Source: Candidatus Thalassarchaeum betae (GTDB lineage Archaea > Thermoplasmatota > Poseidoniia > Poseidoniales > Thalassarchaeaceae). From it: a DNA stretch of 48,482 nucleotides. The notes beneath the pieces were generated by a model. That model saw nothing but the letters and a program-made list of their open reading frames with translations. It was not told the origin of the DNA and ran no database searches. The stretch is taken from the NCBI GenBank assembly GCA_022447095.1, contig JAKUUP010000009.1, positions 1 through 48,482 on the forward strand. Reading direction: 5' to 3'. A program made the position numbers and the translations under genes. Each line of letters starts with the position of its first letter. The stretch's first letter is position 1. This document shows, in pieces, positions 29,554 through 35,690 of the stretch.

Positions 29554-32500
29554 TCAATTGCTGCTCGGGGGGCGTTTTCTCCGCTTCCCTTTCGGTGGCC
29601 TGCGCCTGCGTTGCTTGCCTTTGGGGGGTCGCTTTCTGCGCTTGCCCTCCTGGGTACCCAAATGACCGAGATTTGGATCTATTTTCTTACTGCGTTTTGG
29701 TGCCTTCTCCTTTTTCTGCGAGTTCATGTACATCGCAGTGAGGCCTACCACTGCGAGGGCCGCTGCCCCTCCGATGATTAGCATCGAATTGTCCGCTTCG
29801 ATGCAACTGGTCTGGCCTCTGAGGGGCTGGGTCGCGCCATCGGTGCACTTACTCTGATCGGTGGCAGCCGATTCAGCGACATAGTGATCGACTTCGGCCG
29901 GCTTGCAACTCATCTTGCCGCTGCTGTCCTGATAAGTCCCTGGCTCGCAGGGAGAGGGATAGAGCGCTGCGCTCGTGGAGACGTAGTACCCAGGCTCGGC
30001 GTCGATGCATTCGTGCTGTCCGCCCGAAGTCTGGTAGGTTCCACGTTCGCATGGAGTCTGAGAGGGGGATCCCATTGAGGGTACGTAGTATCCGTAATCC
30101 GCTTCGATGCATTCAATCTGCCCACTGTCGGGCTGGTAGGTTCCACGCTCACAGGCAGTCGGCACGGATGCTTCGTGCTCGGAGACGAAGTAGCCGGGCT
30201 CGGCGTCGGTGCAGGACGCCTGACCGATCGAGGACTGGTATGTTCCTAGATAGCAACCGGTCTGCCCGGCAGAGCCAGAGTAGGGTACGTGGAATCCGTA
30301 GTCGGCTTCCATACAGGCGGTTTGGCCGATCGAAGACTGGTAAGTACCGGGTGAACACGGTATCTGCTCCGCGGCCCCGGTCTGGTCGGTATAGTGCCCG
30401 ATTTCGCTATCCAGGCATGTGGCCGCACCGGAGTCCGGTTGGTGCTCTCCGGCTTCGCAGGCTGTCTGGCTGCTCGCCCCTGAGTCGGGTACGTTATGCC
30501 CGGGGTCTGCGGCCATACAGTCATCCATCCCGCCCTCGGATGCGTAGGTACCCGGATCGCATGGATATTGATTGAAATTGCCAGGGCCGGATGCGTGGTG
30601 GCCTGTGTCGGCATCGATGCAGTGGTCGGAGCCCGGATCGGGCTGGTAGGCCCCCGCAGGGCAAGGGATCTCGAATGCTGTTCCCGGTGCTGGAGCGTAG
30701 AACCCGGGATTGACCAGCGAGCACCCTATCGATGCCGGAGTAGGCTGATGGGACCCTGTTGGGCAGGCAACCTGCTCTATTGCCCCTGAGTCGGTAACAT
30801 AGTAGCCCGTGTCAGCCGGAAGACATGCGTCCCGTCCGGTCGATGGCGAGTAGGCCCCGGGCTCGCAAGCAAACTGCTCTGCAGAGCCGAAACCCGGCGC
30901 GTAATGCCCCTCCGATGCTGAGAAGCAGCCGGACTGGCCGGCCACTGGCTGGTAGGTTCCCGGAGAGCACGCGGTCTGGTCGAGTTGCCCAGTCTCGGAG
31001 ACGTAGTGCCCCGGATCGGCATCCAAGCAGGATGGTTGTCCGGTGTCAGGCTGGTAGGTTGTCGGTGCACAGGGTGTCCCGGAGACTGAGCCTGCATCGC
31101 TGTACTGGCCCCGGTCGACATCCAAACACGAAGTTTGTCCATAGTCCGGTTGGTAGGTACCTGGCGGACAGTCGGTCTCGGTGATCGAGCCAGTTGAATT
31201 TGTGTAGTGACCGGGAGTAGTATCGTAGCACGAGCTCTGTCCGGTGTCGGGGTTGTAGGTCCCCTCGGGGCAAGGGAATTCCTCGGTCATACCGTGTTCA
31301 GGAACGTAGTGGCCCGGAGACGCGTCAACGCAATGGAGGTCGAACAGATACTGGCCCGGAGGGCACGAACTGACAGGCCACGGGGTCGAATCAAATATCG
31401 AGAGGATGCCGTCGTGGTCAGCGTCCCTCTCACCCAAGGAGGCATGGCCTCCGGATGTAGTATTTTGACCGGACAGGTCGACCCACGCAGGAATGTCACT
31501 ATCTCTGGGCTCCACAGCGATACTATCCCAACCCAAACCGAGCTCGCCTTGTTCGTGCGATCCCCAGCAGTGCACTGAGGCGTTGGATACAATCGCACAG
31601 GTGTGATAACTGCCTGTAGTGATGACGTGCACGCCCTGACCTCCTGGCATGGAGACACTGGTTGGCAAGGGTCGGCTTGTACCCGTGGTCCCATCGCCGA
31701 TTTGGCCATAGGAGTTGTTCCCCCAGCACCAAGCGCTGTTGTCATCCAGAATTGCACAGACGTGTTCCAGTCCCCCTGCAATCGAAATCGCGGTTCGGCC
31801 CGCTGGCAGGGAGGCATACCTAGCGGTGAGGGAGGTTGCTGTGTAGGTTCCATCTCCGAATTGTCCGTTTTGGCCCCGACCCCAGGAGACCACGCTGCCG
31901 TCATCCAGTATTGCGTAAGTCGTCTGCTGTGATCCAGAGATCGCGGCTATAGTACGGTTTGAAGGGACGGCTGTGACTGCTGTCGGTTCGTCCACATCAA
32001 CGAAATTTCCAATGCCTAGTTGGCCGTAGTTGTTGCTGCCCCAGCACACCGCACTACCGTCGTCGAGGACGGCGCAGGAGTATTGGGAGCCGCCTGCCAG
32101 TGCAACGGCGGAGCGGCCTGGGGGCAAGTTGATGCCCACAGGTCCTTGAGTCGCATCAACAGGGGCGTTTCCGTTTCCTATCTGCCCCATGTTGTTCTGC
32201 CCCCAGCACCACACCGATTGGTCATCCATGATAGCGCAAGAGTGGTGTAGGCCAGGTGAGACCTGTATGGCTGTTCTTGCGCTTGGCATATTCGTTTGAA
32301 GTGGAGTATTTTGCCCCCCTCCCCACCAGCAGTGAGGGTCGCCGCCCGGGGAGGTATCGCACCCGATCTGGTTCTGGCCGTTCTCACCCCATCCTTGGAT
32401 CGAGCCGTCAATCATAATCGCTATGCCGAAATGCCCGTAAGAGTAAAACTCGGTGGCTAGAGATGGCCCGCCACTGTATCCCAGTTGAACATATCCTGGC

Positions 32501-32835
32501 ACATGCTGGTCTGACCAGGAGCCGTTTCCTAGTTTCCCGGTGGCTCCGTCCCCCCAACATTTCATTGTCCCATCCTGATGGGCTGGCGTAGCGGTGCTCG
32601 TTTCGTCCAGCACCACGCACGTGAAGTAAGAGGACGCGGCTAGTGTCGAATCGGAATAAATCGAGCCTTCTTGAGACCCGGGGGAGTACAAGCCCGAATG
32701 AGCCTCAAGGGCGGGCTTGTCATCGGCCAATTCGGCTCTTTCATCGTGGTACAGGGTCGCTGAAGCTGACATGCCCAGAAGCAGAACAACTAGGAGTATC
32801 GGGAGGGCGTTTGAGGGTCTGTTCGGCTGGCGCAT
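29554..32835 (-). CDS. Giant surface protein: RCC1 propeller, 16 GCC2/GCC3-like Cys repeats, membrane helix, basic repeat tail
   Basis: A signal peptide (ALPILLVVLLLGMSASA) from ATG 32835 precedes seven RCC1-type units (CWGxxxxGQLGxG pattern, about 31500-32560), which should close one seven-bladed beta-propeller. Next come sixteen ~31-residue units of the form C-x2-GTYQ-x4-G-x3-C (about 29800-31370), as in the GCC2/GCC3 (ephrin-receptor-like) family, the first unit being divergent; each has a cysteine pair likely to be disulfide-bonded. One membrane helix (MLIIGGAAALAVVGLTAMYM) follows, then a cytoplasmic tail of lysine/arginine with RR[KR]RPPKGK repeated. Adhesion or receptor roles are guesses. 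About 1093 residues. Same strand as threonine aldolase, 20 bases apart. Confidence 0.82.
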   Translation of the reverse strand: MRQPNRPSNALPILLVVLLLGMSASATLYHDERAELADDKPALEAHSGLYSPGSQEGSIYSDSTLAASSYFTCVVLDETSTATPAHQDGTMKCWGDGATGKLGNGSWSDQHVPGYVQLGYSGGPSLATEFYSYGHFGIAIMIDGSIQGWGENGQNQIGCDTSPGGDPHCWWGGGQNTPLQTNMPSARTAIQVSPGLHHSCAIMDDQSVWCWGQNNMGQIGNGNAPVDATQGPVGINLPPGRSAVALAGGSQYSCAVLDDGSAVCWGSNNYGQLGIGNFVDVDEPTAVTAVPSNRTIAAISGSQQTTYAILDDGSVVSWGRGQNGQFGDGTYTATSLTARYASLPAGRTAISIAGGLEHVCAILDDNSAWCWGNNSYGQIGDGTTGTSRPLPTSVSMPGGQGVHVITTGSYHTCAIVSNASVHCWGSHEQGELGLGWDSIAVEPRDSDIPAWVDLSGQNTTSGGHASLGERDADHDGILSIFDSTPWPVSSCPPGQYLFDLHCVDASPGHYVPEHGMTEEFPCPEGTYNPDTGQSSCYDTTPGHYTNSTGSITETDCPPGTYQPDYGQTSCLDVDRGQYSDAGSVSGTPCAPTTYQPDTGQPSCLDADPGHYVSETGQLDQTACSPGTYQPVAGQSGCFSASEGHYAPGFGSAEQFACEPGAYSPSTGRDACLPADTGYYVTDSGAIEQVACPTGSHQPTPASIGCSLVNPGFYAPAPGTAFEIPCPAGAYQPDPGSDHCIDADTGHHASGPGNFNQYPCDPGTYASEGGMDDCMAADPGHNVPDSGASSQTACEAGEHQPDSGAATCLDSEIGHYTDQTGAAEQIPCSPGTYQSSIGQTACMEADYGFHVPYSGSAGQTGCYLGTYQSSIGQASCTDAEPGYFVSEHEASVPTACERGTYQPDSGQIECIEADYGYYVPSMGSPSQTPCERGTYQTSGGQHECIDAEPGYYVSTSAALYPSPCEPGTYQDSSGKMSCKPAEVDHYVAESAATDQSKCTDGATQPLRGQTSCIEADNSMLIIGGAAALAVVGLTAMYMNSQKKEKAPKRSKKIDPNLGHLGTQEGKRRKRPPKGKQRRRRPPKGKRRKRPPSSN
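29800..31370 (-). repeat. Coding tandem array of GCC2/GCC3-like units
   Basis: About 93-bp periodic coding units, sixteen copies, visible as repeats of C-x2-GTYQ and GHYV-type segments. Copies differ at the base level; units 11-12 share the peptide GTYQSSIGQ exactly and may be recent duplicates. Expansions or contractions between strains are likely. Confidence 0.7.
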
Positions 32836-32942
32836 GTGGCCCTGACTACTCTGTCGAGATTTAACGATTGTTCGTGCACCCTTGGAATACTGCGAATCCC
32901 CAGAGAGGTCAAACTCATTTGTATGCGGCCTCACGGCGAGGC

Positions 32943-34247
32943 GTGGCAGAGCGAAAAGGCGTACAAGACCATACCGAAGACGCTGAAACCCGTCAAGTGG
33001 AGTCGTTCCTATCTGACAACTGCCCTCCGATGGGGATCTACGAGACGCTGTACGCGTTCAGGGATTCGTTCGGCAGTTTCATGGGCACCGAAGGCACGCA
33101 CCCGTGGTCGCAGGGATTCCCCCTGACCACTCCGCTGGAGAAGTTCGGGGGGCCCCCTCTTCCAGCGAGCGTCGACGTCACCTGGGAGGACCGCTTCTAC
33201 CCCAAGGCCTGGGGGCATCCGGAGTTGCGCGAGGCCATTGTGGAGTACTACAACTCGCGATACGGATCGACGATCACGCCCGAGAACGTCATGGTCTTCG
33301 CGGGAGGGCGGCCTGGGATCTACACCGTGATGGCCTTCCTCAAGGAGCATGTCAAGGTGAGGATCGGGAACATCGAGTGGCCGGCGTATCTCGACATCCT
33401 TACACAGACAAATACCGAGTACGAAATCGTCCCGTTCACCAAGGACAACGGCTTCCACCCTAGCAATTCAGAGTACTTCGACCGCTCTGGGGTTGGCGAC
33501 GAGACGAGTCTGATGCCCGTCATCTCGAATCCTCAGAATCCATCCGGCCAGACGCGTTCAGGAGAGGAGCTCAGGGAGCTCATCGAGATGGCTGAGCAAC
33601 CCGGCAACGGTATCCTTCTCGACGAGGCGTACGAGATGTTTCACTCTCCCTCAGTCAGTGGTATAGAGTTCGTTCAGGATCTTGACAACGGCAACGTGTT
33701 CCTCGCGGGGGCCTGCACCAAGGGGCTGCAGTCTCCGGGAATCCGCATCGGTTGGATCATCTCCAGCAAGAGGAACATCGAGACGATGTCAAACTACTCC
33801 AGTTTCGGCATGGGTGGCGTGAGCCACCCCTCGCAGCACTACGCCGTCAAGCTGCTTGAGCCCAGCCGGGTAAAGCAGGCTCGGAAGGCCGTGGAGCAGC
33901 ACTACAACTGGCAGCGGGAGCGATACGGTGAGGCATTCGAGGACATGGGGCTCGGCGTCTACACCGGGAACGGCGGGTTCTACCACTGGCTCGAACTCCC
34001 CGAAGGGATGACTAGTGCGGAGCTCAACCGGCGGCTGTTCAAGCGCGGTGCCGCGATCATATGTGCTTCTGATTGCGACATGGCCCGTCCTCATTCGAAG
34101 GACCCAAACTATGAAACGCCATACTCTCGATTCTTCCGCTTCTCCTTCGGACCTTTGTTACCAGAGACGTTTGAATCCGACATTCAACTGTTCAGCGAGG
34201 TGCTTGAGAAGTACAAGCTCGATGTCGATCACTCGGCGGGCGAGTAG
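32943..34247 (+). CDS. PLP-dependent class I/II aminotransferase
   Basis: Fold-type I aminotransferase. Landmarks: FAGGRPGIYTVMAFL, ISNPQNPSGQT (substrate/PLP loop), LDEAYEMFH (PLP Asp/Tyr), GACTKGLQSPGIRIGW with the Schiff-base lysine, and the C-terminal arginine stretch RFFRFSFGP. The amino donor cannot be told. GTG 32943 is the preferred start because it leaves room for the divergent RCC1 gene's promoter and gives 434 residues; ATG 33030 is an alternative. Its end overlaps the convergent cysteine dioxygenase gene by 19 bases. Confidence 0.87.
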   Translation: MAERKGVQDHTEDAETRQVESFLSDNCPPMGIYETLYAFRDSFGSFMGTEGTHPWSQGFPLTTPLEKFGGPPLPASVDVTWEDRFYPKAWGHPELREAIVEYYNSRYGSTITPENVMVFAGGRPGIYTVMAFLKEHVKVRIGNIEWPAYLDILTQTNTEYEIVPFTKDNGFHPSNSEYFDRSGVGDETSLMPVISNPQNPSGQTRSGEELRELIEMAEQPGNGILLDEAYEMFHSPSVSGIEFVQDLDNGNVFLAGACTKGLQSPGIRIGWIISSKRNIETMSNYSSFGMGGVSHPSQHYAVKLLEPSRVKQARKAVEQHYNWQRERYGEAFEDMGLGVYTGNGGFYHWLELPEGMTSAELNRRLFKRGAAIICASDCDMARPHSKDPNYETPYSRFFRFSFGPLLPETFESDIQLFSEVLEKYKLDVDHSAGE

Positions 34248-34807
34248 ATGTTGTAAGCGTGGAGCGGTGGAGTGTAGATATGCAGGTTGACGAGTTCCGA
34301 ATCGGTGTCATTTGAGACGCGATGGATGTCCGGCTCCTCCGCAGCGCATACCTCTCCGGGCTGATAATGCCTGACGTTTATCGGGTATGCGAGCCCTTCT
34401 TCGTTGGTCTCGTAGATCGTCTCCGTCGAGACCCCGTCGACGATGAGGAAGGCACAGTCGCTGCCAACGTGGTCATGGATGGGCGTCTCCTGCCCTGGAG
34501 TCCAGCATATTGCGACGAGTTCGTAGAACTCGGAATTCTTGACCACGTTCCTCTGGTAGCCGTCATCGGCGTAGCCGATGCACCCCTTGAGTGCTGCAAG
34601 GTTGACCTCGGTGGACTTGAGGTGCATATCGAGCTCATCTAAGCCCGGTCTCCTGTCGATCGAGTCCAACCACTCCACTAAGCCTGAAAGGCCTGAGCAT
34701 TCCGAGAGGAGTTCGTTTCGAACCTCTGGTTCGAGTGCTACTTGGGTGACCATGTTCGGTCGGGGGAGGTGAGCCCCTGATGACGATTCCTGAGCAGAAA
34801 GGCTCAT
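34229..34807 (-). CDS. Cysteine dioxygenase (type I, cupin)
   Basis: Cupin enzyme oxidising L-cysteine to cysteine sulfinate with Fe(II). The first cupin motif is CWTPGQETPIHDHVGSD (H-D-H iron ligands), followed by CAFLIVDG and STETIY, and the second motif is DIHRVSN with the third histidine. Length 192 residues is typical. ATG 34807 is chosen because the open frame further upstream is low-complexity and would cross hairpins in the intergenic region. It could also be a related thiol dioxygenase acting on mercaptopropionate or similar thiols. Confidence 0.88.
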   Translation of the reverse strand: MSLSAQESSSGAHLPRPNMVTQVALEPEVRNELLSECSGLSGLVEWLDSIDRRPGLDELDMHLKSTEVNLAALKGCIGYADDGYQRNVVKNSEFYELVAICWTPGQETPIHDHVGSDCAFLIVDGVSTETIYETNEEGLAYPINVRHYQPGEVCAAEEPDIHRVSNDTDSELVNLHIYTPPLHAYNIYSPAE

Positions 34808-34828
34808 TTGTGATCTAGGGCCATTCAG

Positions 34829-34843
34829 CGGTGCGTAGCACCG
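34829..34843 (-). other. Leader hairpin upstream of cysteine dioxygenase
   Basis: Six-pair stem CGGTGC/GCACCG with a three-base loop, 21 bases before the ATG on the minus strand. Together with ACACCT (34855-34860) and AGGTGT (34880-34885) this makes the leader unusually structured. Confidence 0.35.
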
Positions 34844-34907
34844 TGGTTGTAAAAAACACCTACTGTGGGGGACGGTATCAGGTGTATTTTCGGACACTGG
34901 CGTTCGG

Positions 34908-34927
34908 AAAAAACCCCCTTTAGGGGG
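34908..34927 (-). terminator. Hairpin followed by T6 on the minus strand
   Basis: CCCCC (34914-34918) pairs with GGGGG (34923-34927) around TTTA; on the minus strand the stem is followed by TTTTTT. It would stop minus-strand transcripts coming from antisense of the aquaporin-like gene before they reach cysteine dioxygenase. Confidence 0.45.
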
Positions 34928-34954
34928 GCGTGCTTCCGGATTTCGTAGGTTCCT

Positions 34955-34963
34955 ATTATAAAT
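34955..34963 (+). promoter_or_regulatory. TATA box for the aquaporin-like gene
   Basis: ATTATAAAT is the best TATA-box match in the window, 49 bases before ATG 35012, placing the start of transcription near 34985. AGGTGGG (34992-34998) then GTAGGA provide a ribosome site. Confidence 0.55.
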
Positions 34964-35011
34964 CGTCGTGAAAGCCGGCAATCACTCACTTAGGTGGGTA
35001 GGAAATAAAGA

Positions 35012-35569
35012 ATGGTAGATACAGACACAATGATGAATGAAATGGGCGGGGCCTTCATGGTTGCCTGGCTCGCAGGTGGAGTGGGTGACCTTGGTGGTGC
35101 CCTAGTGCTAGCTGCGGCTTGGATGGCTATAGGCGGCGCTCACATACTGCCAATGATCACTTGGTGCCACATAATGACTGGCGACCTAGCTGATGGTGAT
35201 GCTTGGCAAGACAATGGAAGCCGCCTGGTTGCTCAGGTTATCGGAGCAGTACTAGCTGTAGTGCTAGTGACTCAGGGCGAGTCGTCCGCAGTCACTGCCC
35301 CAGACATGTGGGGAGTTGACGACATGTGGGGACCACTAGGCCTGATTGCCGGTGGTGCACTGCTGTGGACCGTCTATGACCGCTGTGACGCATGGGTCAC
35401 CGCCTTCGTCGTGTTGGCGTTGGGCACCATGGTCGGCGGCGCGTCGGGCATGGCATCCAACATAATGGGCGATGGCGGCGACATAGTCGCTATGGCAAGC
35501 AATTGGGTTATGGACGGCGTAATGGTCGGCCTCGGCGCAATGGCTTCTGTCAAGATCTCAGAAATGTGA
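35012..35569 (+). CDS. Aquaporin (MIP)-fold membrane protein lacking both NPA motifs
   Basis: A 185-residue hydrophobic protein. The N-terminal half matches the MIP pattern: NEMGGAFMVAW (compare E-x-x-GTF), then AIGGAHILPMITWCHIMTGDL, where MIPs have SGAHINPAVT...LLTG. The second half has GTMVGGASGMASN where MIPs have GASMNPARS. So the GAH and GAS scaffolds are kept while N-P-A becomes L46-P47-M48 and M147-A148-S149, and the selectivity-filter arginine is N150. About six short helices fit into less than the usual ~230 residues. Transport of water or glycerol is therefore doubtful; another solute or a structural role is possible. It has a good TATA box, ribosome site and two downstream hairpins, suggesting strong expression. 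Homology is inferred by eye. Confidence 0.6.
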   Translation: MVDTDTMMNEMGGAFMVAWLAGGVGDLGGALVLAAAWMAIGGAHILPMITWCHIMTGDLADGDAWQDNGSRLVAQVIGAVLAVVLVTQGESSAVTAPDMWGVDDMWGPLGLIAGGALLWTVYDRCDAWVTAFVVLALGTMVGGASGMASNIMGDGGDIVAMASNWVMDGVMVGLGAMASVKISEM

Positions 35570-35605: not shown

Positions 35606-35640
35606 GGCGGACTGGGGGGCAAACGCCTCCCAGTCCAGCC
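35606..35640 (+). other. Long perfect hairpin after the aquaporin-like gene
   Basis: Twelve consecutive pairs (35609-35620 with 35625-35636, one G-T) around an AAAC loop, extended by GGC/GCC after a bulged A. No T-run follows; it probably protects the mRNA 3' end or works with the next hairpin. Confidence 0.6.
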
Positions 35641-35647
35641 GCATTAC

Positions 35648-35690
35648 CCCACCGTCTAGAGCGTTCGCTCACGGTGGGTTTTCTCTCGTT
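35648..35690 (+). terminator. Hairpin plus T-rich tract, terminator of the aquaporin-like gene
   Basis: CCCACCGT (35648-35655) pairs with ACGGTGGG (35671-35678), with an inner GAGCG/CGCTC stem, followed by TTTTCTCTCGTTTCTC. It lies just before the 3' end of the convergent pth2 gene. Confidence 0.65.

Follow-up and report, generated by a model that had tools for sequence, protein, structure and literature searches.

A Poseidoniales clade of divergent MIP-superfamily homologues without either NPA motif or the filter arginine

The window analyzed here, a stretch of 48,482 nucleotides from Candidatus Thalassarchaeum betae, carries an open reading frame on the plus strand (35012-35569) that begins with ATG and encodes a product of 185 residues. 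This open reading frame is a genuine gene. Upstream lies a divergent cysteine dioxygenase-like gene (34229-34981, minus strand) and downstream a convergent PTH2 gene, an arrangement that is conserved in several genera and replaced in others. Elsewhere in the window, we also noted an 1126-residue protein encoded on the minus strand (29554-32934) with RCC1 repeats and a region of ephrin-receptor-like cysteine-rich repeats, judged unusual for an archaeon.

Alignment of the region upstream of 11 orthologues revealed a TATA box, TTATAAAT, at 34956-34963 (plus strand), which is kept in most close orthologues, in agreement with a sequence-only reading of this locus; TTATATAC or a similar sequence is found in several more distant members. 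A leader stem-loop (34984-34999, plus strand) is located ~28 nt from the TATA box, and thus close to where the mRNA is inferred to begin, and just 5´ of the ribosome site. The stem-loop forms in all 10 leaders folded (L001-L010), and variants that preserve pairing of the stem (CTCAC/GTGAG and CTCGC/GCGAG) are present in other, more distant genera; elsewhere in the window's genome, the pattern has only two matches, both imperfect. This structure possibly is a regulator or a stabilizer of the mRNA 5´ end. The ribosome site that had been read follows the TATA box and is purine-rich, the GTAGG of the window being weaker than the GAGGAGG of the orthologues. On the 3´ side, two GC-rich inverted repeats span 35609-35678 (plus strand) in the space that separates the gene from the convergent PTH2 gene, the first at 35609-35636 and the second, read from the sequence, at 35647-35678 and followed by TTTTCTCT. 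These repeats agree with the terminator previously proposed, although a terminator consensus scanner flagged neither of them on the plus strand. The gene may be well expressed, on the basis of promoter and leader conservation only.

The window protein alone matched none of the Pfam and NCBIfam models searched and gave no meaningful chain match in the PDB; with no single-sequence model match, automatic annotation probably leaves the protein nameless. Its relatives are recorded under Marine Group II and other Euryarchaeota metagenome-assembled genomes, one of them named Ca. Thalassarchaeum betae. The lack of single-sequence matches would be in line with an unrelated membrane protein of six helices whose composition resembles that of MIP channels, as would AlphaFold2 models that returned no aquaporin fold. 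At the level of the family, similarity to PF00230 and to solved aquaporins is present. Among 60 members, 12 matched Pfam MIP (PF00230) at E ≤ 1 (best E 4e-5) and four matched TIGR00861 (best E 4e-4), while the profile built from all 60 had the aquaporins AQP1 and AQP0 as its sole PDB matches at E ≤ 1, albeit weak ones (E 0.04-0.8). When the family profile was aligned with Poseidoniales MIPs by hhalign, 178 columns were paired with a score of 50.3 (E 7.5e-7), compared to scores of at most 19.0 for the controls: the profile reversed, its columns shuffled eight times, and three other membrane families.

Bridging groups were also found. Six of the seven members of a group termed B match Pfam MIP, one of them covering positions 11-220 of the 222 in the profile, and the group B profile matches the window gene (E = 3.2e-11). 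Group D, which belongs to a different family of the class Poseidoniia, matches Pfam MIP at 8e-23, and its profile hits the window's genome once (E = 6.2e-5), at coordinates that are unlisted and that we assume to be those of the window gene. MIP-typical positions kept in the 60-member alignment are TM1 Glu10, GAH, Pro47, Thr50 and TM3 Gln75. The near full-length profile match well above the shuffled and membrane controls, the bridging groups with intact NPA1 and the restriction of PDB matches to aquaporins make an unrelated protein very improbable, and the family almost certainly descends from MIP channels, as the profile-profile comparison proposed in the sequence-only reading now indicates.

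The NPA motifs are usually regarded as what makes aquaporins work. In the window, residues 41-48 read GGAHILPM and align with the MIP half-helix GAH-x-NPA; the first half-helix motif itself, GAHILP (residues 42-47), is encoded at 35135-35152 (plus strand). At this motif, the family reads SGAh-iLPvvT where aquaporin-1 reads SGAHLNPAVT. In the group to which the window protein belongs, which we denote subfamily A, the motif is GA[H/D][I/V/L]LP, with the Asn replaced by an invariant Leu46 and the Pro kept as Pro47 in all 60 aligned relatives. Since Leu46, Pro47, Thr50, Trp51 and Met147 (35450-35452, plus strand) are each invariant in the 60 relatives, the motif-less state is neither due to chance nor specific to the window; the invariant positions number 19 in total.

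At the second motif position, GGAS (residues 142-145; 35435-35446, plus strand) replaces Asn-Pro-Ala-Arg in the window, and the family has T/G/D-G-A-H/N/S. The register was taken from intermediate sequences by two full-length MAFFT alignments with groups D, E and B, an alignment of the C-terminal half only, and hhalign of group B versus MIPs; the region reads DVNPGVSIGSML in group D, LTGAGDIGGML in group B and LTGAHEMGASI in subfamily A. Unlike these alignments, an earlier family-versus-MIP hhalign placed a gap at motif 2, and we infer residues 142-145 as the likely rather than certain register, one drawn from alignments that cross a gap. Met147 then sits five residues past the lost second Asn. 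A register in which GMAS takes the place of NPAR, proposed earlier, was rejected, as the alignments with intermediates favor NPA-R at G142-G143-A144-S145. Under either register, the aligned sequences indicate that the Asn, Pro and Arg of motif 2 are missing. The filter Arg position is occupied by Ser in the window and by His, Asn, Ser or Ala in the aligned relatives. The loss of the filter Arg along with the two NPA motifs, noted earlier from the window, holds across the alignment, with Leu-Pro-x and [T/G/D]-G-A present instead of the two motifs. Given that these signature features were tested and found missing, subfamily A is filed as a divergent MIP-superfamily homologue rather than an aquaporin. 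On the evidence of the open reading frame, the group B and D profile matches and hhalign, the product of 35012-35569 (plus strand) is an NPA-less MIP-derived membrane protein.

Rather than the single odd gene first described, the window protein belongs to a Poseidoniales clade that is old and widespread and includes paralogues. It occurs in 93 of the 148 genomes examined in the window's family, in every one of the 13 from the window's genus, and in some of the sister family; relatives were not found in the viral contigs, phages and plasmids searched. In a tree of 69 sequences, subfamilies A, B and C formed a single clade (100/99) with Leu or Ile at the position of the first Asn, and nearest to it were groups E and F (97/90), which keep NPA1, have NPG or NAA at motif 2 and lack the Arg. 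This tree, rooted by choice on canonical MIPs, sampled from a single class and accompanied by a program warning of long branches, suggests that the filter Arg was lost before the second NPA, and that the first NPA was lost last, once, in the A/B/C ancestor. The motif losses are, as judged from the alignments, old and family-wide. The A/B/C clade within the MIP superfamily is found in the Poseidoniia and apparently is undescribed; a description was not found in the literature, a weak absence given that unrelated "NPA" words swamped part of the search.

Several other MIP types were observed in these archaea. Groups E and F (L166-L170, from the sister family) have an intact NPA1, NPG or NAA at motif 2, and Ala, Thr or Pro in place of the Arg. 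The group D MIPs (L115, L116, L143-L158) keep NPA1 and mostly have NPG with Val or Ile in place of the Arg. A second common Poseidoniales MIP type (L117-L122, L129, L130) has two NPA motifs and Val at the filter Arg position. We also noted genes of the A/B/C clade in tandem: A then B at 5105-6621 of L112, A, B and then a canonical MIP at 1700-4103 of L131, and C then B at 3699-5114 of L086.

Relative to canonical MIPs, the protein is shortened in both halves; by an alignment count made by eye, the distance from the TM1 Glu to the Gly of GAH is ~32 residues versus ~46. The missing hallmark residues might be expected of a decaying channel gene near disappearance. However, the frame is open and the protein is under purifying selection across species: among seven orthologues, the diverged pairs had dN of 0.06-0.18 and dS of 0.40-1.18, with dS of 0.7-1.2 in most diverged pairs and dN/dS of ~0.1-0.2 in most pairs. 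Together with the presence of the gene throughout the genus and the invariant positions across the 60 relatives, these values leave decay scarcely credible and bear out the suggestion that the gene is maintained; a pseudogene was rejected on the grounds of the open frame and purifying selection.

To follow the topology, we counted Lys and Arg residues using helix ends taken from the MIP alignment rather than from a topology program. The three predicted outer loops have 0.00, 0.07 and 0.03 such residues per protein, compared to 1.57 for the N-terminus, 0.88 for TM3 (inner start), 0.90 for loop D and 0.63 for the C-terminus. This distribution agrees with the N-in, C-in topology of aquaporins. 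In an internal-repeat test, the two halves aligned with GGAH near GGAS (E 0.019), an E equaled by one of 10 shuffles. AlphaFold2 models from two runs with 11 input sequences had mean pLDDT values of 44 and 48, very low confidence, and aquaporins were absent from the Foldseek and VIA matches to them, the models being too poor to inform. We infer that the protein is inserted in the membrane and, with good confidence, predict that the hourglass fold is kept.

With these residues lost and the gene kept under selection in all sampled genomes of the genus, the protein probably has a role other than classical water transport. The explanation we consider best overall, though tentatively and at somewhat less than an even chance, is that of a MIP-derived six-helix protein with motif losses and a shortened chain that most likely is a passive pore. 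Such a protein would have lost its signature elements in the order filter Arg, second NPA, first NPA, with shortening of both halves, and would probably be oligomeric. A Leu on one half-helix and small residues on its counterpart would stand in for the Asn pair, and a small residue or His for the filter Arg; together, these changes would make the pore less polar and remove its positive barrier. Conduction, which is a guess, is slightly favored because the filter positions have turned to small residues or His, not bulky ones, in the 60-member alignment and because the gene persists in genomes from which other MIPs have gone, both indirect considerations. The functional reading we adopt, with less confidence, is a passive pore with a non-polar center for small neutral molecules, the substrate likewise being a guess; candidates would be ammonia, CO2, hydrogen peroxide, and short polyols or amides, and the protein would not be a strict water channel.

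The invariant Leu at the pore center could, on the other hand, block the pore. Together with the loss of both Asn and the Arg, it speaks for a MIP relative that keeps the fold but does not conduct, serving as a structural, sensing or partner subunit, for instance in mixed oligomers with a tandem B protein or a canonical MIP. In genus g10, B indeed lies downstream of A on the same strand (L053, L073, L082, L112), and L131 adds a canonical MIP. However, the window's genus has subfamily A without B, and a MIP scan of seven of its genomes gave a strong NPA-type match in one (G108), weak matches in three, which probably are the window protein's own gene, and none in three, so a partner is not generally available. 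The small residues at the former filter positions also are unlike a plug. We regard a non-conducting role as unlikely, if the most serious alternative to a pore.

Less likely still is a channel permeable to cations or protons, in which acidic outer loops attract cations once the positive barrier formed by the Arg and the NPA Asn pair has been removed. Per protein, the predicted outer loops do carry ~7 acidic residues against 0.1 basic ones, but acidic surfaces are frequent in marine and salt-adapted proteins. A central Leu would be unfavorable to ions, and a free cation leak would be expensive for the cell. In favor of such a channel, proton exclusion in aquaporins has been attributed in part to the filter Arg and to helix dipoles focused at the NPA motifs (PMC4814140).

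Returning to the passive pore, we found that its neighborhood names no substrate when neighbors are compared across genera; as a guide it was rejected, the neighbors being divergent or convergent and different in other genera. Of 60 genomes of the window's family, 54 lack Pfam Amt/Rh, whereas it is present in each of 14 control genomes, which counts for a neutral-molecule pore, though weakly, because two genomes (G108 and G116) have both Amt and the window protein's gene. A bolder version, which we hold to be rather improbable, is a new archaeal channel class: the aquaporin scaffold, having lost the two NPA motifs and the Arg, would form a short hydrophobic pore, by itself or jointly with the tandem B protein, and would take over the exchange of gas or ammonia in abundant surface-ocean archaea, most of which have no Amt.

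The host group is abundant in surface seawater but uncultured, and little is known of how these archaea exchange solutes and gases; none of the profile libraries searched names the window protein. With MIP channels (PF00230; E. coli AqpZ and GlpF, archaeal AqpM), the family shares near full-length homology, the TM1 Glu and the TM3 Gln, and subfamily A shares the GAH-x-x-P-x-x-T half-helix and the predicted N-in/C-in topology. Unlike these channels, subfamily A has NPA in neither half, lacks the filter Arg and has lost the TM4 Glu, and its 185 residues compare with 231 for AqpZ and 281 for GlpF (PMC6912568). Prokaryotic MIPs with altered NPA motifs include those of Segniliparus rotundus (TPV/VPA) and Sulfolobus (NPN/NEA) (PMC6912568). 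They share deviations in both halves, and the Segniliparus protein has both Asn replaced; as described, they keep the Pro or Asn of motif 2 (PMC6912568), whereas in subfamily A the Asn, Pro and Arg of motif 2 are all lost, across an archaeal clade. Among unorthodox eukaryotic aquaporins, AQP11/12, SIPs and Plasmodium AQP2 share an atypical motif 2 or filter. Plasmodium AQP2, with NPM and Phe in place of Arg (PMC10622946), keeps both Asn-Pro pairs, unlike subfamily A, and AQP11/12 have been described as animal-only, without prokaryotic relatives (PMC6912568). The ammonia-permeable AtTIP2;1 offers a similar idea, an altered, wider filter that passes ammonia (PMC4814140), but retains the NPA motifs and the filter Arg. 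Loss of both Asn therefore has precedent in one bacterial protein (PMC6912568). What is new, within the reach of our searches, is the absence of the two motifs and the Arg throughout a conserved archaeal clade, together with the existence of intermediates; a clade that keeps the scaffold, with living intermediates of partial loss, provides a ready series for testing the role of each element.
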